Positions 4,952 to 61,373 of a stretch of 64,000 nucleotides of DNA are shown piece by piece (the first letter of the stretch is position 1; each line of letters opens with the position of its first letter). The notes beneath the pieces were generated by a model. It ran no database searches, was not told where the DNA came from, and worked only from the letters and a program-made list of their open reading frames with translations. The position numbers and the translations under genes were made by a program. Source of the stretch: an uncultured Ruminococcus sp. (GTDB lineage Bacteria; Bacillota; Clostridia; Oscillospirales; CAG-272); NCBI GenBank assembly GCA_902782445.1, contig CACZNC010000010.1:62001-126000 (forward strand). Reading direction: 5' to 3'.

Positions 4952-6376
4952 ATGAAAAAAAGCATCTTCACCGTGTTTCTGGCCCTCCTCCTCTGCGCGC
5001 TGACCGCCGTTTCGGTTTCCGCCGCGGAGCTGACCTTCGAAGACGTCACCGAGGACAAGTGGTACTACGCGGACGTCCTCACCGCCGTGGAAGCGGGACT
5101 GGTCAACGGACGGAGCGAGACCGCCTTCTGCCCGGAGGAAAACCTCACCGCCGCGGAAGCCGTCAAGCTCGCCGCCTGCATGCGTCAGCTGGTGACCGAG
5201 GGCAAAGTGACCCTCGAAAACGGGGATCCGTGGTATCAGACCTATGCCGACTACGCCCGTGAAAACGGCATCATCGACGAGGATCCCGTCTGGAACGAGC
5301 CCATGACCCGGGCCGACTACATGGGGATCTTCGCCCGCGCCCTGCCCGACGAAAACCTCGCCCCGATCAACGAGATCCCCGAAGGCTCCCTCCCGGACGT
5401 CCCGGCGGATCATTTCCACGCGGCGGGGATCTACAAGCTCGCCCGGGCCGGAGTGGTGCAGGGGGACAACGACCGCAACGTCAAGCCGGACAGCCTCGTC
5501 CGCCGGTGCGAAGTCGCCGCCATCCTCACCCGCATGGTCTTCCCGGAGACCCGGATCACCTTCGAAGCTCCCGCACAGCAGCAGGTGCAGAAGGAGATCT
5601 ACCCGAACAGCTACGTCGGCCTCTGGAGCGATCCGCAGTTCGGCCGCGCCACCGTGAAGATCCTCCCCTCCGCCGAAGAGGGAAAGTATGAGATCACGAT
5701 CGTCTGGGGCGACAGCGCGTCCTCCTCCGGGGAGTGGAACATGAAAGCCGCCTTCGATCCCGGGACCGGGAAAATGGCCTATGAAAACGGGACCATGGCC
5801 CTCGTCACCTACGATGAGACCGGCAAGGCCGTCTCCTCCGAGGAGCGCTGGAACGACGCCGCGGGTTATTTCCTCTTCGACGCCGACGGCAAGCTGACCT
5901 GGGACGACAGCCGCGAGGAGAGAAGCCGCGAGTTCAGCCTCGAAAGAGTCGTCTTGCCCGCCTCCTCCGCTCCCACCGCGGAAGAGCTGACCGAGAGCTT
6001 CTTCGGGGTGATCGGCTCCATCGCCCCCGGGACGGCGGGATCCTCCCTCAGACAGGCCAAAGCCGCCGCGGACGTGATGGACTTCGCCGCGAAGCGTCAG
6101 ATCTGGACCGTGGACAACGAAGCCCTGCGCGCGAACATCCTCGCCGCCTGGGAGGCCATGAGCAAGGACGAGCAGTCCGCCTTTGACGAGAGCTTCATCC
6201 CGGTCCTGAGCCTCATGCGCGACGCCCTCGCCGACTGGGAGACGAACAAGCCCCTCTTCGAAGACGCCGGAGTCCTCGAACTTATGGAAGCCCTCCGCGC
6301 CGATCCCTCCGCCAAGCTGTCCTGGGACGCCCTCACGGGGAACACGCTGACGATGGGAAACTCCACTGGGGAGTGA
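4952..6376 (+). CDS. SLH-domain surface protein
   Basis: A 474-residue exported protein. Residues 1-25 form a signal peptide ending at AAE. Three SLH modules follow: about 30-80 (FEDVTEDKWYY start), 90-140 and 150-205 (LPDVPADHFHAAGIYKLARAG). SLH modules bind pyruvylated secondary wall polymer, so the protein sits at the cell surface. Residues 215-474 carry no domain I recognise; they are rich in charged residues and include FGVIGS and helical C-terminal segments. A GAAAGGAAAG ribosome site precedes ATG 4952. The csaB-like gene at 21628-23991 would make the anchoring polymer. Confidence 0.85.
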   Translation: MKKSIFTVFLALLLCALTAVSVSAAELTFEDVTEDKWYYADVLTAVEAGLVNGRSETAFCPEENLTAAEAVKLAACMRQLVTEGKVTLENGDPWYQTYADYARENGIIDEDPVWNEPMTRADYMGIFARALPDENLAPINEIPEGSLPDVPADHFHAAGIYKLARAGVVQGDNDRNVKPDSLVRRCEVAAILTRMVFPETRITFEAPAQQQVQKEIYPNSYVGLWSDPQFGRATVKILPSAEEGKYEITIVWGDSASSSGEWNMKAAFDPGTGKMAYENGTMALVTYDETGKAVSSEERWNDAAGYFLFDADGKLTWDDSREERSREFSLERVVLPASSAPTAEELTESFFGVIGSIAPGTAGSSLRQAKAAADVMDFAAKRQIWTVDNEALRANILAAWEAMSKDEQSAFDESFIPVLSLMRDALADWETNKPLFEDAGVLELMEALRADPSAKLSWDALTGNTLTMGNSTGE

Positions 6377-6480
6377 TTAGCGGCCAGCGGGTAGTAGCTA
6401 GTAGACGAGTTAGGAGTGAATGAGAAGTTAGGAATTCAGAATTCAGAATTATGAATTATGAATTGTGAATTTGGGACGGC
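6377..6480. repeat. heptamer tracts (tagtagc, aggagtt and gaattca types)
   Basis: Three degenerate 7-nt families follow one another: agcggcc/gtagtag units, then gagttag/gagtgaa units, then gaattca-gaattca-gaattat-gaattat-gaattgt units at about 6431-6470. Confidence 0.6.
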
Positions 6481-6564: not shown

Positions 6565-6580
6565 TGTTTCACATGAAACA
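6565..6580. other. parS-like site, one mismatch
   Basis: TGTTTCACATGAAACA, one mismatch to the parS consensus, just beyond the terminator T-tract. Confidence 0.5.
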
Positions 6581-6628
6581 TTCTTCCGAAATATCGGCCG
6601 CCGCACGCCCCGTTCCGCCTCCAGCTTG

Positions 6629-6754
6629 TCATTCTGACGCACCGACGCAGTCGTGCGCACCAACGCAGTTGTGCTGTCAGCGAAGAATCTCCCAGCTTCA
6701 AGGCCAACCCATCCTTCACGTGCGGAGATTCTTCGTCGCAGGCTCCTCAGAATG
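6629..6754. repeat. CATTCTGA inverted repeat, copy 1
   Basis: Outer arms CATTCTGA and TCAGAATG and inner arms GAAGAATCTCC and GGAGATTCTTC bracket a conserved spacer (caaggccaaccc). It sits between two parS-type sites, as in the other composite elements. Confidence 0.7.
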
Positions 6755-6770
6755 TGTTTCACGTGAAACA
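6755..6770. other. parS site, perfect consensus
   Basis: Exact TGTTTCACGTGAAACA, abutting the left end of a forward arm. Confidence 0.8.
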
Positions 6771-7070
6771 GTGTCCCGAAAACATGGATATACTTGATCC
6801 GCGCGGGGGTGGACGGTCAGATCCCGCCATACGGAAACGCGACAACGCCGAATGCGCGCCTGAATCTCTGCCGGAGGCCGCAGGATTTATCCTGCGCATG
6901 TTTCAGCTGCACGACCGGCGATCAAGCGTGGTTGGCTCCATGTTCAGGCTCGTCCGGCTTGTATCTTTCAAAATGCGCGGGGATCGCTTCATTTATGGGC
7001 TGAACGACCGCGCGTTCCGACGCCGAATCCTTTTCCCTCCCAAAAAACCGTAAATCCCGCGCATTACGAA
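6771..7070 (+). repeat. structured 'arm' repeat, forward copy F1
   Basis: Conserved landmarks in order: gatc-cgcgcggg, cagatcccgcc, aacgccgaatgcgcgcctgaa, the TT-loop hairpin GCAGGAT-TT-ATCCTGC (6880-6895), ggttggctccatgtt, cgcgcggggatcgc, and cgcgcgttcc near the end. Its distal end lies about 20 nt beyond the 3' end of the GH35 gene. Confidence 0.75.
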
Positions 7071-8924: not shown

Positions 8925-8999
8925 TTGGGTGGGAGTGGTTAGGGGTTAGTAGAACGAGTGAGGAGTGAGGAGTTAGGAGTGAGATTCAGAATTCGGGAT
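8925..8999. repeat. heptamer tract
   Basis: gttgggt/gagtggt/taggggt units pass into gagtgag/gagttag/gagtgag units and end in an agattcagaattc segment. Confidence 0.55.
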
Positions 9000-9317
9000 T
9001 GTCCGCGGCGGGGGGCGTGCGGTGCGGGATTATCGGGTTTTTATATGGGAGCGCTTCGCTGGGATTCGAAGGCGCGCGGTTTTGAAGCCGGTGAATGGGG
9101 CGATCTTCGCGGGCTTTTGCAGATTGCGGATTTGAAGAGCCGGAACATGGCGGCAACCTGGCTTGATCGCCAACGTGCGGCTGAAACATGCGCAGAACAA
9201 GTTCTGCGGCCTCCGGCGGAGATTCAGGCGCGCATTGGGCAAAGGACGCGGTTTCGGGATTTCGGATCCGATTTTCTGTCCTCGCGCGGGTTAAGAAAGA
9301 CAAGGGGGGTTGGATAA
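9000..9317 (-). repeat. structured arm repeat, reverse copy R1
   Basis: Reverse-complement arm with the ATAAAAACCC-type end at the left, agcgcttcgctgggatt, cgcgcggtt and ccaacctggcttgatcgcc. The TT-loop hairpin (seen as AA on the plus strand) is GCAGAAC-AA-GTTCTGC at 9192-9207. Confidence 0.75.
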
Positions 9318-9333
9318 TGTTTCACGTGAAACA
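9318..9333. other. parS site, perfect consensus
   Basis: Exact TGTTTCACGTGAAACA at the inner end of arm R1. Confidence 0.8.
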
Positions 9334-9350
9334 ATTCCTTTTTCTGCCAA

Positions 9351-9366
9351 TGTTTCATGTGAAACA
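9351..9366. other. parS-like site, one mismatch
   Basis: TGTTTCATGTGAAACA, 33 nt from the perfect site. This second, degenerate site keeps the same spacing in the other composite elements. Confidence 0.55.
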
Positions 9367-9419
9367 ATCCTGCTTCTCCGTCAGACAGGCCGCCGCACGT
9401 CCCGTTTCGTCCTCACTTT

Positions 9420-9594
9420 GTCATTCTGACGCACCGACGCAGTCGTGCTGTCAGCGAAGAATCTTCGCACTGGAAAGATCAAGCCGTAGTTTGAGTCGGA
9501 AGACAGTCTTCATTACTTTTGCGGGAATCCTCCGACTATAACTGCGGCCACATAATGAAGCGCAAAGATTCTTCGTCACAGGCTCCTCAGAATG
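9420..9594. repeat. CATTCTGA inverted repeat, copy 2, with internal insert
   Basis: Same ends as the other copies, but the centre differs: after cgaagaatctt come about 110 nt that include CCGTAGTTTGAGTCGGA and TCCGACTATAACTGCGG, an imperfect inverted pair that could form a long stem. Confidence 0.6.
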
Positions 9595-9640
9595 ACAACG
9601 AGGAGCGAAACGATGGAGGTCAGCCGTCCGAAATCACGAT

Positions 9641-9656
9641 TGTTTCACGTGAAACA
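9641..9656. other. parS site, perfect consensus
   Basis: Exact TGTTTCACGTGAAACA at the inner end of arm F2. Confidence 0.8.
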
Positions 9657-9930
9657 TCACCCCGAAAACCTGCACTTTGTCCCCTTTCCATGCGCGCCTG
9701 AATCTCTGCCGAAGGCCGCGGACTTGTCCGCGCATGTTTCAACCGCACTTCGGCGATCAAGCCGGGTTGGCTCCATGTTCCGGCTCGTCCGGCTTGAATC
9801 TGTCAAAACGCGCGGGGATCGGCTGATTCACAAGCTGAACGGCCGCGCGTCCCTTCCATCCCAGCGAAGCGCTCCCATATAAAAAAACATAAATCCCGCA
9901 CCGCACAAAATCCTGCACCGCACAAACCCC
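9657..9930 (+). repeat. structured arm repeat, forward copy F2
   Basis: Shorter at its 5' side than F1. Hairpin CGCGGAC-TT-GTCCGCG at 9717-9732, then ggttggctccatgttccggctcgtccgg, cgcgcggggatcgg and the cagcgaagcgctcccatataaa end. Confidence 0.75.
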
Positions 9931-13654: not shown

Positions 13655-13670
13655 TGTTTCACGTGAAACA
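13655..13670. other. parS site, perfect consensus
   Basis: Exact TGTTTCACGTGAAACA next to arm F3. Confidence 0.8.
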
Positions 13671-15583: not shown

Positions 15584-15599
15584 TGTTTCACGTGAAACA
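15584..15599. other. parS site, perfect consensus
   Basis: Exact TGTTTCACGTGAAACA. Confidence 0.8.
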
Positions 15600-21560: not shown

Positions 21561-21601
21561 ACCGTCAGGGTTGAACTTGAAGTTCTTCTCTGACGGTTTT
21601 G
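21560..21601. terminator. bidirectional rho-independent terminator
   Basis: ACCGTCAG (21561-21568) pairs with CTGACGGT (21590-21597), with A-tract and T-tract on either side, so it can end the DUF4340 operon (+) and csaB (-). The loop contains a GAACTTGAAGTTC inverted repeat. A parS site overlaps its end. Confidence 0.75.
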
Positions 21602-21615
21602 TTTCACGTGAAACA
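21600..21615. other. parS site, perfect consensus
   Basis: Exact TGTTTCACGTGAAACA, starting at the terminator T-tract. Confidence 0.8.
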
Positions 21616-35199: not shown

Positions 35200-36756
35200 T
35201 CAGTCAAAGTTTACCCCATGCTGAATCTCCTTCCCGTCGGGGGCGGTGACGGTGTAGTACAGCACGTTGCCGTTCGAATTGACGCGGATGGATTTCAGTC
35301 TGCCCTCGTACACCGTCTGGGACGTGCCGTCGCGGAAGATGAAGAGCAGGCGGTAACTCTCCGCGCCGGAGCCGTAGAGCCCCGCGCCGTAGAGGATCGC
35401 GCACCGGTCCGCCTCATATTCGAAGAGGATCTCGGCCGCGCCCGCCTTCGCGTCGTTCACCGCGGACTTGAAGGCCTCCTGATTGACGAGGGTCGCCGCG
35501 TCCACGGAATCCCCCTGGACACCGTAGGCGGATTCCACGAGCTTCGAGAGATCGTCCAGGCCGCAGAGCTTCAAAGTGTCCGTCCCGGGCTGGCCGCAGA
35601 CGAACTGAGCCCGCGTCACGGCGGCCGGATCCAGAGCCTCGTCCAGATAGAGGGCGTAGGTCGTGTACCCGTCGTGATCCGCGTACCAGAGACCTGCGAT
35701 GGTGGCCCGTTTGCCGTTCACCCAGAGGTAGAAGAGCTCGTTGATCCGGGTGTAGACCTCGGAGGCCGGGCGGATGGCGGAACCGTTCGCGCCGACTGCC
35801 GCCTCTTCGAGCTGGGACCGGACCGCGGCGAAGGCCTCATAGCCGGATCCCTTCGCCAGCCGGAAGGAGATATTGTCCCGCTCCAGAGCCACGTGACCCG
35901 TCAGATCCAGCGAATAGGACGCGAGGACCGAAGACTTGCCGGAGGAGACGGAGACGTCCCCCGCGAATCCCGCCAGCCCCGCGACGGAGGATCCGGCGTT
36001 CTCCCCTTCGTAGAGGACCAGCACGCCGGGGGTCGCCGCGGTCTCCTGTTTCGCGGGAGCTTCGGCGGGGGGATTCTGTCCGGGCTGATGGTAGAGGATG
36101 CGGAGGGAGGGATCCACCACCCGGGTGACCACCGCGGAGATCTCGCTGCGGCGCACGGAGGAGTCCGCGTTGAAGAGTCCCCATTCGTTGCCCACCATCA
36201 CGCCCCAACGGGCCAGACGGTAGACAGAGGTCGCGTACCATGCGGAGGGATCCACGTCCGGGATATCCCCGAATTCGAGGGTGTTGATCTCGTCGGGGGT
36301 GACGCCGGCTCCCCTGACCGCCCGGGAGAAGAGGACCGCCACCATGGCCCGGGTCGCGGGAGCGTTGTAGTTCTCGTAGGTCTCCGTCACGATGTCCCGC
36401 TGGACCGCGTAGGAGACGTAGGGATCGTACCAGTGTTCCGCGCCCTCGGCGGAGAAGGTATCCTCCCCGATGGAGCCCTTCGCCAGGAGCTCATTGCTGA
36501 CGGCGGCGAGCTTGATCGTCTCGGCGATGGTGAGGGTCCCGTCGGGGTCGAAGGAATCCTCGCTCTTGCCGTTTATGATCCCGAGCTCGTAGGCCAGCGC
36601 CACGTTGCTCTTGAACCACGCGTTCTCCGGCACGTCGGCGAACTGACCGCTGTACGTCCTCACCCGCGCGTAATCGGCGGATACCGCGGCCGTCATCACA
36701 AGGACGAGCGCGAGCAGGAACGGAAGAAATACGATGCGGAATAGCTTGTTTTTCAT
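35200..36756 (-). CDS. SLH-domain surface protein
   Basis: A 518-residue exported protein: basic N terminus and hydrophobic signal peptide (cleavage near VSAD, residue 26), then three SLH modules (about 38-90 with FADVPENAWF, 100-150, 160-215 with IPDVDPSAWYATSVYRLARWGV). A Pro/Ala linker at about 225-250 leads to a C-terminal half I do not recognise. The start at 36756 has AAAGGAAC upstream; in-frame codons before it run through repeat DNA. Convergent with the deacetylase gene. SLH binding would anchor it to the pyruvylated wall polymer. Confidence 0.84.
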   Translation of the reverse strand: MKNKLFRIVFLPFLLALVLVMTAAVSADYARVRTYSGQFADVPENAWFKSNVALAYELGIINGKSEDSFDPDGTLTIAETIKLAAVSNELLAKGSIGEDTFSAEGAEHWYDPYVSYAVQRDIVTETYENYNAPATRAMVAVLFSRAVRGAGVTPDEINTLEFGDIPDVDPSAWYATSVYRLARWGVMVGNEWGLFNADSSVRRSEISAVVTRVVDPSLRILYHQPGQNPPAEAPAKQETAATPGVLVLYEGENAGSSVAGLAGFAGDVSVSSGKSSVLASYSLDLTGHVALERDNISFRLAKGSGYEAFAAVRSQLEEAAVGANGSAIRPASEVYTRINELFYLWVNGKRATIAGLWYADHDGYTTYALYLDEALDPAAVTRAQFVCGQPGTDTLKLCGLDDLSKLVESAYGVQGDSVDAATLVNQEAFKSAVNDAKAGAAEILFEYEADRCAILYGAGLYGSGAESYRLLFIFRDGTSQTVYEGRLKSIRVNSNGNVLYYTVTAPDGKEIQHGVNFD

Positions 36757-36877
36757 GGATCGACGTTCCTTTCTATATGATTTTCGGAACAGGCAGGCAC
36801 AGCCCGAACGGGTTTTGATCCCGCGGTCCGTGTCTGGCAGGGGACGAGTGGGGGCGGAGAAATGAAGAATTAAGAAT
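36757..36877. other. upstream region of the SLH gene, no clear promoter
   Basis: Apart from a short gaagaattaagaatt segment before the parS site I see no structured feature. Confidence 0.4.
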
Positions 36878-36893
36878 TGTTTCACGTGAAACA
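36878..36893. other. parS site, perfect consensus
   Basis: Exact TGTTTCACGTGAAACA, left of arm F5. Confidence 0.8.
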
Positions 36894-37110
36894 TTCGCCG
36901 AGGCTCCATGTTTAGCCCAAGCAGATTTTTGATCGCGCCGTTCTGTCTGCATACAGATCTGAATCTGAGCATGTGCGCGAGGAAGAAGAAACTATTTCAG
37001 CTTCCCGTCCGCGCGTCCCTGTGCCCAATGCGCGCCTGAATCTCCGCCGGAGGCCGCAGACTTGTCTGCGCACCATTCCAGCTGCACGAACAAAGACCGC
37101 GCGAGGACGT
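36894..37110 (+). repeat. structured arm repeat, forward copy F5
   Basis: Same 5' variant as F4 (ttttgatcgcgccg, atgtgcgcgagga). Hairpin CGCAGAC-TT-GTCTGCG at 37055-37070. It passes into the TTCG module. Confidence 0.72.
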
Positions 37111-38986: not shown

Positions 38987-39025
38987 GTGGGAAATGGAAT
39001 AAGGAGTCAGGAGTGAGGAGTGTTA

Positions 39026-39299
39026 GGACATATACGCGTCGGGGGACGGGCATTGCGGGATTTTCGGGTTTTGAGTGGGGAGCGCTGCGCTGGGATGGAA
39101 GGGACGCGCGGACGTTCAGCCGGGGAATGGGGCGATCTTCGCGGGCTTGGACGAATTCAGAAATCACGAGCCTGAACATGGAGCCAACCCGGCTTGATCG
39201 CCGAAGTGCGGCCAAACCCATGCGCAGAACAAGTTCTGCGGCCTCCGGCAGAGATTCAGGCGCGCATTGAAAGGGGACAAAGTGCGGAGGAGGACGCGA
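39026..39299 (-). repeat. structured arm repeat, reverse copy R5
   Basis: Hairpin CGCAGAAC-AA-GTTCTGCG at 39223-39240, with agcgctgcgctgggatgga at its outer end. Confidence 0.75.
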
Positions 39300-39315
39300 T
39301 GTTTCACGTGAAACA
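39300..39315. other. parS site, perfect consensus
   Basis: Exact TGTTTCACGTGAAACA. Confidence 0.8.
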
Positions 39316-39332
39316 ATTCCTTTTTCTGCCAG

Positions 39333-39348
39333 TGCTTCATGTGAAACA
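39333..39348. other. degenerate parS-like site, two mismatches
   Basis: TGCTTCATGTGAAACA, 33 nt from the perfect site as in E2. Confidence 0.45.
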
Positions 39349-39401
39349 ATCCTGCTTTTCCGTCAGACAGGCCGCCGCACGTCCCGTTCCGCCCTCACGT
39401 T

Positions 39402-39512
39402 GTCATTCTGACGCACCGACGCGGTCGTGCTGTCAGTGAAGAATCTCCCAACTTCAAGGCCAACCCATTCTCCACGTGCGGAGATTCTTCGTCGCAGGCT
39501 CCTCAGAATGAC
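39402..39512. repeat. CATTCTGA inverted repeat, copy 3
   Basis: Outer GTCATTCTGA/TCAGAATGAC and inner GAAGAATCTCC/GGAGATTCTTC arms around caaggccaaccc. Confidence 0.72.
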
Positions 39513-39557
39513 AAAGAAAAGCGGAACGATGGGGGTCAGCCTCCCTGAATGAAGAAT

Positions 39558-39573
39558 TGTTTCACGTGAAACA
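39558..39573. other. parS site, perfect consensus
   Basis: Exact TGTTTCACGTGAAACA at the inner end of F6. Confidence 0.8.
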
Positions 39574-39900
39574 ACAGGCCCCAAAGCCTTGTTATTCTTG
39601 ATCTGCGCGAAGATAGGCTTTCAGTTCCGGAAACACGAAAACGCGTCCAACGCCGAATGCGCGCCTGAATCTCTGCCGTGAGGCCACGGGCTTGTCCCGT
39701 GCACGGGTTCAACTGCACATCGGAGACCGCGCGAGGAAAACGCCATGTCCCGCTCGTCCGATTTGCAATCTGCAAAAGCGCGCGAAGAGAGTGAGCCGGT
39801 TTTCGATACGAGTCCGCGCGTCCCTCGAATCCCAGCGAAGCGCTCCCATATAAAAAAACAAAAATCCCCCACCCCACATCCCCACGACGCGGACAATCCC
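39574..39900 (+). repeat. structured arm repeat, forward copy F6 (decayed hairpin)
   Basis: At 39686-39700 the stem is ACGGG/CCCGT with a CTTGT loop; one base appears lost relative to the ACGGGAC-TT-GTCCCGT form of F11. Other landmarks are intact. Confidence 0.7.
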
Positions 39901-39979
39901 CCATCCACTCCTAACTCCTCACTCCTAACTCCCTTCCAATGTTCTGCCGCCCGCAAACCGCTCAATTTCTTTTTTTGCC

Positions 39980-40008
39980 TTGCAAACCGCGAAAATCTGT
40001 GGTATAAT
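39980..40008 (+). promoter_or_regulatory. sigma-A promoter of the atp operon
   Basis: TTGCAA (39980-39985), 17-nt spacer, TATAAT (40003-40008) preceded by TG; 32 nt before the atpI start. Confidence 0.8.
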
Positions 40009-40039
40009 AAAGCGATTCCTTCGGGAAGGAGGTCCTTCG

Positions 40040-40609
40040 ATGAAGCTCGATCCGGAAGTGCTGGATGAAAACCGGAAAATGGCGCGCGACTGCCTGATCC
40101 TGACTGCGGTCATGGCGGCGGGCTTTCTCGTTGCGCGGCGGTTCGATCTGTCCGTCGTCTGGGGCCTCCTGATCGGGTACGCGCTGGCGGTCGGGAACTT
40201 CTACTTCATGTCCGTCGGCCTGACGAAAGCCCTCTCGACGGGGGACGAGACCGCGGCGAAGACGAAGATCCGGCAGTCCTACCTGATCCGCACCCTCGTC
40301 ATGCTGGCGGTGATGGCTTTCTCCCTCTGGACCGAGCGGATCCACTGGGTCCCGGTGATCGCGTCGGTGTTCTACCCGCGGATCGTTCTGGCGATGCGGG
40401 GCGCGTGGACGTGGATCCGGCGGCGGCGTCACCCGGAAGAGGAACCCGAACCGGCGGCAAGGGAGATCCCCGCGGAGCCGGAGGAAGAGGAATCCCCCGA
40501 CGAATTCGAAAAGTTTGTGAGCCATTTCTCGAAAGGCCCGGTCCCCGGAGAAGAGAAGGGGAAGGCGTCCGACGAAGCGGAGAAGGATTCCGAAGGGAAG
40601 AAGGACTAA
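40040..40609 (+). CDS. atpI: ATP synthase subunit I-like membrane protein
   Basis: A 189-residue protein with four hydrophobic segments in the first 125 residues (about 19-36, 40-62, 80-98, 105-122) and an acidic Glu/Pro-rich cytoplasmic tail (130-189). AtpI proteins help assemble the c-ring; position first in the operon, directly after the promoter, supports the call. AAGGAGG is 7 nt before ATG 40040; an upstream TTG-type extension would overlap the promoter. The acidic tail makes it longer than usual AtpI (about 130 residues). Confidence 0.75.
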   Translation: MKLDPEVLDENRKMARDCLILTAVMAAGFLVARRFDLSVVWGLLIGYALAVGNFYFMSVGLTKALSTGDETAAKTKIRQSYLIRTLVMLAVMAFSLWTERIHWVPVIASVFYPRIVLAMRGAWTWIRRRRHPEEEPEPAAREIPAEPEEEESPDEFEKFVSHFSKGPVPGEEKGKASDEAEKDSEGKKD

Positions 40610-40613
40610 AAGA

Positions 40614-40795
40614 TCTTTCTGGATGCAGAGAACATAACATTATCGCCGTTCTTTTCTCCTTTATCAAGGAGAAAAGAACCAAAAGAGGAACTCCTCAGAA
40701 GTCATGGGTATTCCGAAGTCTGCGGACTTCGGGTCAGGACGCTGTCCCGACACCCTGCCACCTTTTGAAAAAGGTGGACGAAAACTTTCATTGGG
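40614..40795 (+). repeat. family-3 intergenic repeat (GGGTATTCCGA family) within the atp operon
   Basis: Stem GTTCTTTTCTCCT (40648-40660) with AGGAGAAAAGAAC (40667-40679); then tcatgggtattCCGAAGTC-TGCG-GACTTCGG (40713-40732); then CCACCTTTT-GA-AAAAGGTGG (40758-40777) and aacttTCATTGgg just before atpB. A related copy lies at 63880-64000 in inverse orientation. The first stem could attenuate transcription into atpB. Confidence 0.72.
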
Positions 40796-41546: not shown

Positions 41547-42111
<565 letters not shown>

Positions 42112-48870: not shown

Positions 48871-48885
48871 GTTTCACGTGAAACA
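48870..48885. other. parS site, perfect consensus
   Basis: Exact TGTTTCACGTGAAACA immediately after the terminator. Confidence 0.8.
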
Positions 48886-49212: not shown

Positions 49213-51498
49213 TTACTGCTTCGCCAGTTCCGCCGGAGGCCCTACCCTCTTCTCGGGATTCATCATGCGGACCACGATCGCGGCGACTTCGGAACGCTTG
49301 ATGTTCGATTCGGGATGGAAGGTCCCCTTTGCGTCGGAGCCGTTGAGGATCCCCGCCCGGTAGAGAAGGTAGATCGACCCGTAGTTCTTCTCCACTGCGG
49401 GCCGGACTTCCGGCATGATATCGGAATCGAAATCATACTGTACGTCCGGGATGGCGTTCTCGGGGATCGTGTTGATCTCCGCGAGGGCTTCCTGCGGCAG
49501 GCAGTAGGAGAAGATCCACGCGAATCCCATCCGGGTGATCGGCTCGTTGGCATAGGCCATCACGGTGTCGTAGGAATAGCCCGAGGAGCCGGGGAAGAGG
49601 AAGCCGCCCTGCTTTCTGCCGTAGTCCGCGTAGGTCTCGTACCAGGGATCGCCGTTTTTCAGCGTCACCTCTCCGGTCGTGTAAAGCTGGTGCATGCAGG
49701 CGGCCAGCTTCACGGCTTCGGCGAGGGTCATCTTGCCGTCCGGATCGTACCAGTCCAGCCCCTCGGCGTCCTTGCCCTTGCCGTTGATAAGCCCGAGATC
49801 CACGGCGGCGTAGACCCAGTCGTGGAACCAGTCGTCCGGGTGCACGTCCTTGAAGACCACCTTCTGCTGGACCGGGATGCCCGTATCGGATCCCGTGCCC
49901 GCGGAGCCCTCCGTGACGGTGAGTTTCGCCCGGTCGGTGGTGACGGGAGTCGTGCCGGCGGGACCGGAGATCACGCACCAGAAGCTCCAGCCGGAATAGT
50001 TCCCCGTGAGATTCGAGAGGGTGAGGATGGAGGTCTTCGCCCCGCCGAACCGGTCGGAAACGGCGTTGTTGTCGAGGACGGGCGCGCTGTTCCCGCCTTC
50101 CGGAGCGTAATGCCACTGATAGCTCAGCCCCTGCCCCTCGGCGTCCACCGAGAAGAGGACGGTGCTGCCGGATTTGGCGTAAATGTCCACGGGCTGCTTT
50201 TTGATCGTGCAGGCGGGCTTCGGATCGGATTTGGCCACGGTGAACTCGGCCGCCGCGGTCAGAACGTCCTTCTTGCCCTGCACCACCCCGACGGTGGGCG
50301 CGAGCTGTCCCGTGACGGGCTGGCCGTTGGAGAGCAGGAGCGTCACCGTCACCGCCGCGTCGGACGTGCCGGATTTCTTCGACCAGGCGCATCCGTCGGG
50401 GGCCTCGATGTGGAAGATGAGATCGTAGGTGTGCTCCGCCTGGAAGGTCTCGCCGGGGAGCATGTCGTGTTCGGATCCGGGCGTCGCGTCCACCCAGGTG
50501 AAGGGGGAGACGCCGAGAAATCTGCCGATGCTCAGGGTGAATCCGCTCTTCTGGGGATCCCCTCCGGCGACGGGAGCCTTGAGCCCGCCGATGGTGACGG
50601 AGTCGAGCTTCTTCGCCGTGTCCTCGCAGGTGAGTTTGAAGGCGGCGGAGAGGATGCCGGTCTGGACGTTGACGTCCGTGTCGGACTGGGACGCGACCTT
50701 GACGGAATCCTCCCAGAGGGACACCGTGACAGCACCGGGTCTCACATCCGCGGCGGAGCTTCCTTTCGCCAGAGCCCATTCGGTGCCGGGAGCCGCCTGC
50801 AGGTGATAGATGACCTGATACTCATGCCCGCCGACGAAAGTGGAATCCGAGGAGAGGTATTCGCCCGCGGTCCAGTCGTACCAGGTGGTCTCGCTGAGGG
50901 TCGCGCCCTGGGTGGCGATGTAGTCGTCGTAATTGGGTCTCGCGCCGTCCTTCGGCTTCACGGGGATCAGGGCGTCCAGTTCCACGTCGCCGATGGCGTA
51001 GCTGGGGCAGGAGACCTGACAGCCGAGGATCAGCGTGCCGTCGGCGCGGATGTATTTCTGCTTGAGGGGGAGCTCTTCTCCTTCGTCGCTGTAGACGTGA
51101 ATGTCCATCACAGCCTCGTCCGTGCGGAAGGTTTCCCCGTCCCAGGTGTTCCACGCGTAGGTCTCCGGCGGGATCAGGAAGAGGTAAAACTCATAGCTGT
51201 GACCCGGGATGAACAGAGTGTCCTTGCCGAGCATCAGTTCCGACTCCGCCGTGTCGCTCCACATGACCATGTCCACCGTCACCGGGAGCATGGAATCGGC
51301 GCCGACGAGCCCGTTTTTCTCGGATTCTGACGGCAATGCCAGAACCTGGGCATGGTCGGACGGGGTGGAGCCCGCTTTCGGAAGAATGATTCCCGTTACG
51401 GACATGCGGGTCAGCACGTCTGCGATCGCCCCGGCGGGGACCGCGAGGACCGCGAGGAAGAAGAGAACGAGGAGGAGCGAAATCAGAGTTCTTTTCAT
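49213..51498 (-). CDS. multidomain surface protein with Ig-like and C-terminal SLH domains
   Basis: A 761-residue exported protein. Signal peptide at residues 1-25. Residues 30-400 hold repeated beta domains of similar design (each with an ASDT/VT...KAAF/FTL-type end), residues about 415-525 an Ig-like domain (GSTVLFSVDAEGQGLSYQWHY), and 550-755 three SLH modules (FKDVHPDDWFHDWVY, YADYGRK...PITRMGFAWIFSY, GSIYLLYRAGILNG). Unlike the other SLH proteins here, the anchor is at the C terminus. AAAAAGGAG precedes the ATG. Probably a surface adhesin or wall scaffold. Confidence 0.84.
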   Translation of the reverse strand: MKRTLISLLLVLFFLAVLAVPAGAIADVLTRMSVTGIILPKAGSTPSDHAQVLALPSESEKNGLVGADSMLPVTVDMVMWSDTAESELMLGKDTLFIPGHSYEFYLFLIPPETYAWNTWDGETFRTDEAVMDIHVYSDEGEELPLKQKYIRADGTLILGCQVSCPSYAIGDVELDALIPVKPKDGARPNYDDYIATQGATLSETTWYDWTAGEYLSSDSTFVGGHEYQVIYHLQAAPGTEWALAKGSSAADVRPGAVTVSLWEDSVKVASQSDTDVNVQTGILSAAFKLTCEDTAKKLDSVTIGGLKAPVAGGDPQKSGFTLSIGRFLGVSPFTWVDATPGSEHDMLPGETFQAEHTYDLIFHIEAPDGCAWSKKSGTSDAAVTVTLLLSNGQPVTGQLAPTVGVVQGKKDVLTAAAEFTVAKSDPKPACTIKKQPVDIYAKSGSTVLFSVDAEGQGLSYQWHYAPEGGNSAPVLDNNAVSDRFGGAKTSILTLSNLTGNYSGWSFWCVISGPAGTTPVTTDRAKLTVTEGSAGTGSDTGIPVQQKVVFKDVHPDDWFHDWVYAAVDLGLINGKGKDAEGLDWYDPDGKMTLAEAVKLAACMHQLYTTGEVTLKNGDPWYETYADYGRKQGGFLFPGSSGYSYDTVMAYANEPITRMGFAWIFSYCLPQEALAEINTIPENAIPDVQYDFDSDIMPEVRPAVEKNYGSIYLLYRAGILNGSDAKGTFHPESNIKRSEVAAIVVRMMNPEKRVGPPAELAKQ

Positions 51499-51689: not shown

Positions 51690-51964
51690 ATTGTCCGCAT
51701 CGGGGGGAGAGTTGTGCGGTAATTTCGGGTTTTGAGTGGGAGCGCTTCGCTGGGATTCGGGGGGGACGCGCGGTTCTGTATCGAAAAACGCTTTTCTCTC
51801 TTCGCGCAATTTTGCAGATTCAAGTCGGACGAGCCTGAGAATGGAGCCAACCTCGCGCGGTCTTCGCACGTGCTGCTGAAACATGCGCAGGATAAATCCT
51901 GCGGCCTTGCGGCGGTGATTCAGTCGCGCATTGAAAGGGGACAGAGTGCGGTCGACCGGGGTGA
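51690..51964 (-). repeat. structured arm repeat, reverse copy R6
   Basis: Hairpin CGCAGGAT-AA-ATCCTGCG at 51886-51903, the same stem as F1. Confidence 0.75.
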
Positions 51965-51980
51965 TGTTTCACGTGAAACA
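51965..51980. other. parS site, perfect consensus
   Basis: Exact TGTTTCACGTGAAACA. Confidence 0.8.
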
Positions 51981-51997
51981 ATTCCTGCTTCTGCCGG

Positions 51998-52013
51998 TGT
52001 TTCATGGGAAACA
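51998..52013. other. degenerate parS-like site, two mismatches
   Basis: TGTTTCATGGGAAACA, 33 nt from the perfect site. Confidence 0.45.
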
Positions 52014-52065
52014 ATCCTGCTTCTCCGTCAGACAGGCCGCCGCACGTCCCATTCCGTCTATACGT

Positions 52066-52158
52066 TGTCATTCTGAACGAAGTGAAGAATCTCCCAACTT
52101 TGAGGCTAACCCATCCTCCACGTGCGGAGATTCTTCGTCGTAGGCTCCTCAGAATGAC
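52066..52158. repeat. CATTCTGA inverted repeat, copy 4 (short)
   Basis: GTCATTCTGAAC...GAAGAATCTCC and GGAGATTCTTC...TCAGAATGAC. Confidence 0.72.
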
Positions 52159-52234
52159 ACAGTAAAGCGGCGGCGGACGGGTTTCAGCCTGAATGAAGAA
52201 TCGTTTCAGAAAAAAACTGAACGAAATCACGATT

Positions 52235-52250
52235 TGTTTCACGTGAAACA
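52235..52250. other. parS site, perfect consensus
   Basis: Exact TGTTTCACGTGAAACA at the inner end of F9. Confidence 0.8.
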
Positions 52251-52600
52251 ACACCCCCGAAAATCCTTGCCTTTCTTCCCCCGCGCGAGGATAGACTTTC
52301 AGATCCCGACACCCGACCGCGCGTCCTGTGCCCAATGCGCGCCTGAATCTCCGCCGGAGGCCGCAGAACTTGTTCTGCGCATGTTTCGACTGCACGACCG
52401 GCGATCAAGCGCGGTTGGCTCCATGTTCCGGCTTGTCAGGCCTGAATCTGCAAAATTGCGCGAAGAGAGAAAAGCGTTTTCGATACAGAACCGCGCGTCC
52501 CTTCCATCCCAGCGAAGCGCTCCCATACAAAAAACATAAATCCCGCACCAAAACGAAATCCCGATCCAGCCTCCCGCAAATCATTCTGCATTCTTAATTC
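52251..52600 (+). repeat. structured arm repeat, forward copy F9
   Basis: Hairpin CGCAGAAC-TT-GTTCTGCG at 52362-52379. The standard cagcgaagcgctcccatacaaa end is followed by a ttaattc/tgaatttt heptamer remnant. Confidence 0.75.
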
Positions 52601-56166: not shown

Positions 56167-56182
56167 TGTTTCACGTGAAACA
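56167..56182. other. parS site, perfect consensus
   Basis: Exact TGTTTCACGTGAAACA, inner end of R7. Confidence 0.8.
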
Positions 56183-57759: not shown

Positions 57760-57775
57760 TGTTTCACGTGAAACA
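57760..57775. other. parS site, perfect consensus
   Basis: Exact TGTTTCACGTGAAACA, 5 nt before a terminator stem. Confidence 0.8.
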
Positions 57776-59164: not shown

Positions 59165-59498
59165 ATTGGGGGGATTGGGCTTGATCTGCGGCGGGATGGG
59201 GGCGGTGCGGGATTGTAGGTTGTATTTTATGGAAAAGGAGTCGGCGTTGGAACGCGCGGTTTTGTATCGAAACCGGTTCGCTCTCCCCGCGCACTTGTGA
59301 TGATTCGGACATGACGAGCCGGAACATGGAGCCAACCTCGCGCGGTTTGTGTTCGTGCAGTTTAACCCGTGCGCAGAACAAGTTCTGCGGGCTTCGCCGG
59401 AGATTCAGGCGCGCATTCGGCGTTGTCGTGTTTTCGGGATTCCGAATCTGATTGTCTATCCTCGCGCGGATCAAGAAAGACAATGGGTTTGGCGGTAA
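59165..59498 (-). repeat. structured arm repeat, reverse copy R8
   Basis: Hairpin CGCAGAAC-AA-GTTCTGCG at 59372-59389; outer end of the ggagtcggcgttgg type. Confidence 0.75.
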
Positions 59499-59514
59499 TG
59501 TTTCACGTGAAACA
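59499..59514. other. parS site, perfect consensus
   Basis: Exact TGTTTCACGTGAAACA. Confidence 0.8.
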
Positions 59515-59531
59515 ATTCCTTTTTCTGCCAG

Positions 59532-59547
59532 TGTTTCATGTGGAAAA
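59532..59547. other. degenerate parS-like site, three mismatches
   Basis: TGTTTCATGTGGAAAA, 33 nt from the perfect site. Confidence 0.4.
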
Positions 59548-59600
59548 ATCCTGTTTTTCCGTCAGACAGGCCACCGCACGTCCCGTTTCGCCCTCACTTT

Positions 59601-59693
59601 GTCATTCTGAGCGAAGCGAAGAATCTCCCAGCTTCAAGGCCAACCCATCCTCCACGTGCGGAGATTCTTCGTCGCGGGCTCCTCAGAATGACA
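59601..59693. repeat. CATTCTGA inverted repeat, copy 5
   Basis: GTCATTCTGAGCGAAGCGAA, GAATCTCC and GGAGATTCTTC, TCAGAATGAC. This copy has the simplest form of the left arm. Confidence 0.75.
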
Positions 59694-59736
59694 ACGAGAA
59701 GCGGAACGATGGGGGTCAGCCGCCCTGAATGAAGAA

Positions 59737-59752
59737 TGTTTCACGTGAAACA
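59737..59752. other. parS site, perfect consensus
   Basis: Exact TGTTTCACGTGAAACA at the inner end of F11. Confidence 0.8.
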
Positions 59753-60070
59753 ACACCCCGAAACCCGTTGTTTTTCTACACCCGCGCGAGGACAGACAAT
59801 CAGATCCCGCCGCACGAACGCGCGAACAACGCCGAATGCGCGCCTGAATTTCTGCCCCAGGCCACGGGACTTGTCCCGTGCATGTTTCGACTGCACGAAC
59901 TCAGACCGCGCGAGGAAACCTCCATGTTCCGCTCGCCATGTCTGAATCTGTCAAGGTGCGCGAAGAGAGTGAAGAAGTTTTCGATACAAGTCCGCGCGTC
60001 CCTTCCATCCCTGCGAAGCGCTCCCATATAAAAAACATAAATCCCGCACCCCCTCCCCCCGATGCGGACA
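59753..60070 (+). repeat. structured arm repeat, forward copy F11
   Basis: Hairpin CACGGGAC-TT-GTCCCGTG at 59863-59880; standard agcgctcccatataaa end. Confidence 0.75.
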
Positions 60071-61357: not shown

Positions 61358-61373
61358 TGTTTCACGTGAAACC
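61358..61373. other. parS-like site, one mismatch
   Basis: TGTTTCACGTGAAACC, last base differs. Confidence 0.55.

Follow-up and report, generated by a model that had tools for sequence, protein, structure and literature searches.

The 64-kb stretch of DNA analyzed here (the window) contains four composite loci in which perfect matches to parS, the nucleation site of ParB, are framed by long arms. The question raised by these loci is whether they are a mobile sequence, a means of organizing the chromosome, or both. The window is part of one contig, C10, of a genome assembly of 4.16 Mb in 144 contigs (93.8% complete, 0.62% contamination).

The first-pass annotation had proposed a fixed order of modules for the four loci, and examination of the window sequence revealed this order in all of them (Table 1). 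A perfect parS site follows the left arm, and exactly 33 nt past it lies a degenerate parS with 1-3 mismatches; next come the CCGTCAGACAGGCCGCC segment, the inverted repeat of CATTCTGA and TCAGAATG, a second perfect parS, and the right arm. The left and right arms of each composite are inverted copies, and for this reason composite 1 folds strongly as a single strand (z = -19 versus shuffles). The one-sided version that had been described upstream of composite 1 was likewise found. No Pfam family was matched by the open reading frames of 100 aa or more within the composites, where the earlier statement was that no copy contains a coding gene. Large predicted S-layer homology (SLH) domain proteins are encoded in the window at 4952-6376, 35200-36972, and 49213-51498.

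Table 1. Coordinates of parS-bearing units and further parS sites in the window. Starts refer to the 14-mer GTTTCACGTGAAAC or its degenerate counterpart.
Feature	Position	Strand	Details
Composite 1, left arm	9000..9317	-	points away from parS; inverted copy of right arm
Composite 1, perfect parS 16-mer TGTTTCACGTGAAACA	9318..9333	.	start 9319
Composite 1, degenerate parS TGTTTCATGTGAAACA	9351..9366	.	33 nt on; start 9352
Composite 1, CCGTCAGACAGGCCGCC segment	9378..9394	+	
Composite 1, CATTCTGA...TCAGAATG inverted repeat core	9422..9594	.	repeat starts 9422/9587
Composite 1, second perfect parS	9641..9656	.	start 9642
Composite 1, right arm	9657..9930	+	hairpin gcgcctgaatc...cgcggacttgtccgcgcatgtttc
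Composite 2, left arm	39026..39299	-	
Composite 2, center	39300..39573	+	parS 39300-39315 (start 39301); degenerate parS 39333-39348 (start 39334); CCGTCAG segment 39360; CATTCTGA pair 39404/39503; second parS 39558-39573 (start 39559)
Composite 2, right arm	39574..39900	+	
Composite 3, left arm	51690..51964	-	
Composite 3, center	51965..52250	+	parS 51965-51980 (start 51966); degenerate parS 51998-52013 (start 51999); CCGTCAG segment 52025; CATTCTGA pair 52069/52149; second parS 52235-52250 (start 52236)
Composite 3, right arm	52251..52600	+	
Composite 4, left arm	59165..59498	-	
Composite 4, center	59499..59752	+	parS 59499-59514 (start 59500); degenerate parS 59532-59547 (start 59533); CCGTCAG segment 59559 (1 mismatch); CATTCTGA pair 59603/59683; second parS 59737-59752 (start 59738)
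Composite 4, right arm	59753..60070	+	
One-sided unit	6565..7070	+	degenerate parS 6565-6580 (start 6566); CATTCTGA pair 6630/6747; perfect parS 6755-6770 (start 6756); right arm to about 7070
Further perfect parS 14-mers	13656..13669, 15585..15598, 21601..21614, 36879..36892, 41690..41703, 48871..48884, 56168..56181, 57761..57774, 61359..61372	.	

The perfect 14-mer occurs 18 times in the window and 259 times in the whole genome, where the pattern read backwards gave a count of zero, and a chance origin of the window sites is thereby excluded. Perfect parS sites numbered 0-5 in each of 24 congeners, at most 7 in the other 34 relatives, and 0-7 in the 390 other genomes of the class (391 including this one); the runner-up among more than 440 related genomes had 7. 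One of the nearest congeners, G002, has none in an assembly that is 94% complete. The element core was absent from all 24 congeners. Neither the composite nor its core was matched among viral contigs, plasmids, and phages, and an origin of the element from any of these was rejected on this basis. The nearest named relatives of the ParB of this species are from Clostridia metagenome-assembled genomes of the ruminant gut.

Placement of the sites was examined in 2.27 Mb of sequence, or 54% of the genome, which held 162 perfect sites. These were arranged as 92 single groups and 35 pairs about 245 bp apart (range 170-342 bp). Together with the one-sided copy, the four composites account for 5 of the approximately 130 parS-bearing units in this sequence, and the commonest form is simpler, with one parS and one or two arms. 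The arms lie about 16 nt from parS and point outward from it in every orientable case, with none inward; a unit with two arms is thus a long palindrome. Two arms are not found in every group, and arms without parS also exist. One contig (C63, L079) has 12 arms with a single perfect parS, an indication that arms can abound without the site. The arm contains a hairpin that covaries, as 139 of 203 arms had a perfectly paired stem of 5 bp or more, with 19 different stem sequences, compared to 11 of 120 for a neighboring control stretch. The arm is therefore under some structural constraint of its own. Tandem repeats of GGAGT(T/G)A and GAATT(M)(W) flank the units, as at window positions 6397-6470, 8950-8985, 39005-39022, and many more; these motifs had 83 and 106 hits, respectively, on parS contigs versus 12 and 10 elsewhere.

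All 162 perfect sites were located on 30 contigs, of which 0.56 Mb was read and whose full lengths total 0.93 Mb, or 22% of the genome. The remaining 1.71 Mb read contained none, compared to about 106 expected under a uniform distribution. The arms, the CATTCTGA cores, and the tandem repeats have the same confinement, which for the tandem repeats is nearly complete. The only full dnaA gene lies on one parS-dense contig (C16), with three parS sites within about 2 kb, and parA and parB, the latter encoding the only chromosomal ParB, lie on another (C18) beside a noc-type gene. The highest density, 7.5 parS per 10 kb, was found in the stretch with parB. Genes recognized by eye, rather than by profile search, as likely recF, mnmE, fusA, and clpC are also on parS contigs. 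Because GC skew was too weak to order or orient the contigs, the sites are near the origin as judged by contig content, that is, the dnaA, noc, and parAB group, and not by distance along the chromosome. Counts per 20 kb along C10 were uneven and formed no clean gradient (10, 7, 4, 5, 2, 8, and 6).

The parS sites are conserved far above their surroundings. The full 16-mer is kept in 147 of the 162 sites, all of which have the 14-mer. To avoid selection bias, a sample of units was then picked by their arms and not by parS. Of 71 complete arms in this sample, 45 (63%) had a perfect 16-mer and 9 had one with a single mismatch, whereas a perfect parS would be expected in 2.8% if the site had drifted as the arm has. 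In the 61 units with a recognizable site, column identity was 97% within parS, compared to 64% over the 16 nt next to it and 80% over the arm, and the mean pairwise identity of the arms was 70%. The second parS, 33 nt on, serves as an internal control and was mismatched in all 11 cases seen. The ratio of perfect to degenerate sites was 17:19 where arms are sparse and 137:26 where they are dense (Fisher p = 9e-6, at the level of sites); in the arm-anchored sample, the ratios of 36:17 in dense versus 9:9 in sparse places had the same direction but were not significant (p = 0.26). On contigs that lack a perfect parS, the units have sites with 1-3 mismatches; since these contigs were defined by that very absence, the finding is descriptive and does not amount to a test. 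The arms also hold well-conserved stretches along with the compensated hairpin, so that the entire repeat may be under selection.

The above considerations point to a lineage-specific, non-coding palindromic repeat, with parS at its axis, that would have multiplied parS until the origin region became one large ParB-loading domain. We give this explanation a probability of roughly 60%. The alternatives named in the first-pass annotation were a non-autonomous mobile unit and a chromosome-organizing element, and the evidence favors both at once. For spread speak the absence of the core from the 24 congeners and one orthologous comparison of a filled and an element-free locus, made with three relatives. 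The genus has a conserved gene order near parB (noc, parS, parA, parB, X195, and a MORN gene). In G006, G019, and G012, the last two genes are separated by about 35-150 bp without any element, whereas in this species the interval measures about 570 bp and contains an arm and parS. Against a fixed unit, the modules are also assembled in other ways than the composite, and a search of the genome for the REP-type Y1 transposase (Y1_Tnp, PF01797, RAYT) gave no match while positive controls were detected; the search for a trans-acting transposase covered the Y1 family alone. For organization speak the confinement to the dnaA/noc/parAB contig group and the conservation of parS.

An older repeat may have become the arm when it was joined to parS. 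Downstream of parB in the sister species G002 (L241:2516-2651), there is an arm-like sequence, ATGCGCG...hairpin...CGCATGTTTCGGCTG, with the same ends, a different hairpin, and no parS, which may be an older relative of the arm; the match, with E = 0.44, is a lead only.

Several of these observations are also those expected of a selfish non-autonomous transposon, for which parS would be a targeting or copy-control signal near ParB-covered DNA with no gain to the host. The element is limited to one species, it has the inverted arms, free of coding genes, of a MITE along with outer tandem repeats, one gap is filled where relatives have it element-free, and insertion into the ParB complex could explain the confinement. 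We nonetheless consider this explanation unlikely. The ends of the units run into GGAGT/ACTCC tandem repeats, where a target-site duplication is not discernible, and the Y1 transposase is absent. Moreover, the copies are old as judged from arm divergence, yet their parS sites are perfect, which requires selection after insertion.

We then considered which protein the sites would serve. The chromosomal ParB carries an intact GERR box and, at the R173/G201 positions, GKSR and AGHA. Residues of the GKSR/AGHA type have been tied to parS specificity (PMC7383237), and by its sequence, this ParB is of the cognate type for the sites. An alternative is that they serve the ParB paralog Noc in nucleoid occlusion, perhaps a Noc that has changed. 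The noc-type gene (L034:12493-13452; C18 about 39775-40734, minus strand) adjoins parAB, lies between two composite units, and is inverted relative to parAB when compared with congeners. Many Noc sites per genome are normal in Bacillus. Canonical Noc sites, ATTTCCCGGGAAAT, had no copies in the 2.27 Mb read, though a Noc with Noc-type recognition residues is encoded; this absence is in keeping with a changed Noc, and it is also the ground on which the window-type sites were rejected as Noc binding sites. However, the sites are parS at both discriminating positions, and Noc keeps Q173/K179/R201, which confer a preference for the Noc site over parS (PMC7383237). In addition, while the DNA-binding part of the protein is retained (SQS, NKLR, and ERHGR), GERR is replaced by GEIR and ENLHRED by ETVRREE, motifs that are intact in the Noc of a congener (L263), and GEIR in place of GERR suggests a damaged CTP switch. 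We regard a role of the sites in Noc binding as quite improbable. A second gene with a ParB domain (L021:8527-9489, on C4) is, as judged by eye, near genes for an SLH-type protein and a VirD4-like protein. It was rejected as the partner of the sites, since it is beside conjugation-type genes in a stretch without parS, and it probably belongs to an integrated conjugative element.

Another possibility is that the palindromes act as RNA, in the form of terminators or mRNA hairpins, and that the likeness to parS is incidental. This would agree with the intergenic location of 133 of the 162 perfect sites, with the covarying arm hairpins, and with the strong fold. It would leave without reason both an exactly conserved 16-bp parS beside a varying arm and the confinement to the dnaA/parAB contig group. 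An Rfam search of the window gave no family match, and a known RNA element was rejected on this basis. We judge the RNA explanation to be very improbable. Finally, that the parS-rich contigs came from another organism or replicon through a binning or assembly artifact is hardly credible despite their somewhat different tetranucleotide and codon use, because the sole full DnaA and the sole chromosomal ParB are encoded on the dense contigs, contamination is as low as stated above, and ParB with two window genes (dense) and Pnp (sparse) have the same nearest congeners, G002 and G006; a chimeric bin was rejected on these grounds.

When compared with known systems, the sites most resemble the parS clusters of chromosomal ParABS, with the same 16-bp site on dnaA/parAB contigs and a cognate-type ParB beside parA. 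Those clusters have 1-20 sites, whereas here 259 sites on a repeat family are found over about 0.93 Mb of contigs; the highest known counts are 20-23, in Streptomyces coelicolor and Listeria innocua (PMC7333895). The Noc/NBS system of Bacillus is similar in having many palindromic ParB/Noc-type sites per genome and an encoded Noc-type protein, but here the sequence is parS rather than NBS and is confined to one-fifth of the genome. With MITE-type elements, the repeat shares non-coding sequence, inverted arms, many copies, lineage specificity, and at least one element-free orthologous gap; it differs in having no transposase identified and no definable target-site duplication, and in being modular, often one-sided, and highly localized. 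REP/BIME sequences with RAYT are also intergenic palindromes with hairpins in many copies, but here there is no Y1 transposase, the arms are about 240-300 bp, and the axis is parS, and a REP/RAYT identity was rejected for want of the transposase. A literature search found neither genomes with hundreds of parS sites nor the CATTCTGA repeat. The parS site and the proteins are already known; the number of sites, the domain, and the vehicle are without precedent found in the literature.

ParB proteins nucleate at parS, spread as CTP clamps, and load SMC. In the proposed regional domain, the ordinary chromosomal ParB would nucleate at the repeat-borne parS and slide as a CTP clamp. With a group of sites every 2-3 kb, the origin region would become one ParB/SMC-loading domain, or "regional centromere." ParB loading over the whole domain is predicted from known ParB biology together with the parS-type residues of this ParB. 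Selection on ParB function would keep the sites intact, and copies far from the origin would be lost since ectopic parS is harmful, so that the permissive zone would bound the domain. Tolerance of new parS sites is limited to a distance of about 500-650 kb from native parS or oriC (PMC5815017, PMC5098823, PMC7333895), and such a permissive or competence zone has been mapped with transposons in Caulobacter and Pseudomonas (PMC5815017, PMC5098823). This zone would act as a filter on a parS-bearing repeat, and self-reinforcing growth of a centromere region through such restriction has been proposed in a review (PMC7333895). In B. subtilis, many scattered loading sites or more loading leads to more SMC collisions (PMC8357415). 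Such a domain should accordingly be costly, and unless little SMC is loaded at each site, the cell must tolerate the collisions.

How centromere-like regions expand, and what drives their expansion, has been posed as a question (PMC7333895, PMC5815017). This genome looks like such an expansion on a roughly tenfold larger scale, and one whose vehicle can be identified. The fullest form of the proposal, on which we are evenly divided, is that a self-propagating palindrome turned a point-like centromere into a regional one of megabase scale, that the approximately 260 parS sites are functional and load ParB and SMC over one-fifth of the chromosome, and that the domain edge naturally records where parS is tolerated. 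The genome would then offer a naturally occurring parallel to the transposon maps of parS-permissive zones, and it would call into question whether a large number of loading sites leads to damaging SMC collisions (PMC8357415).
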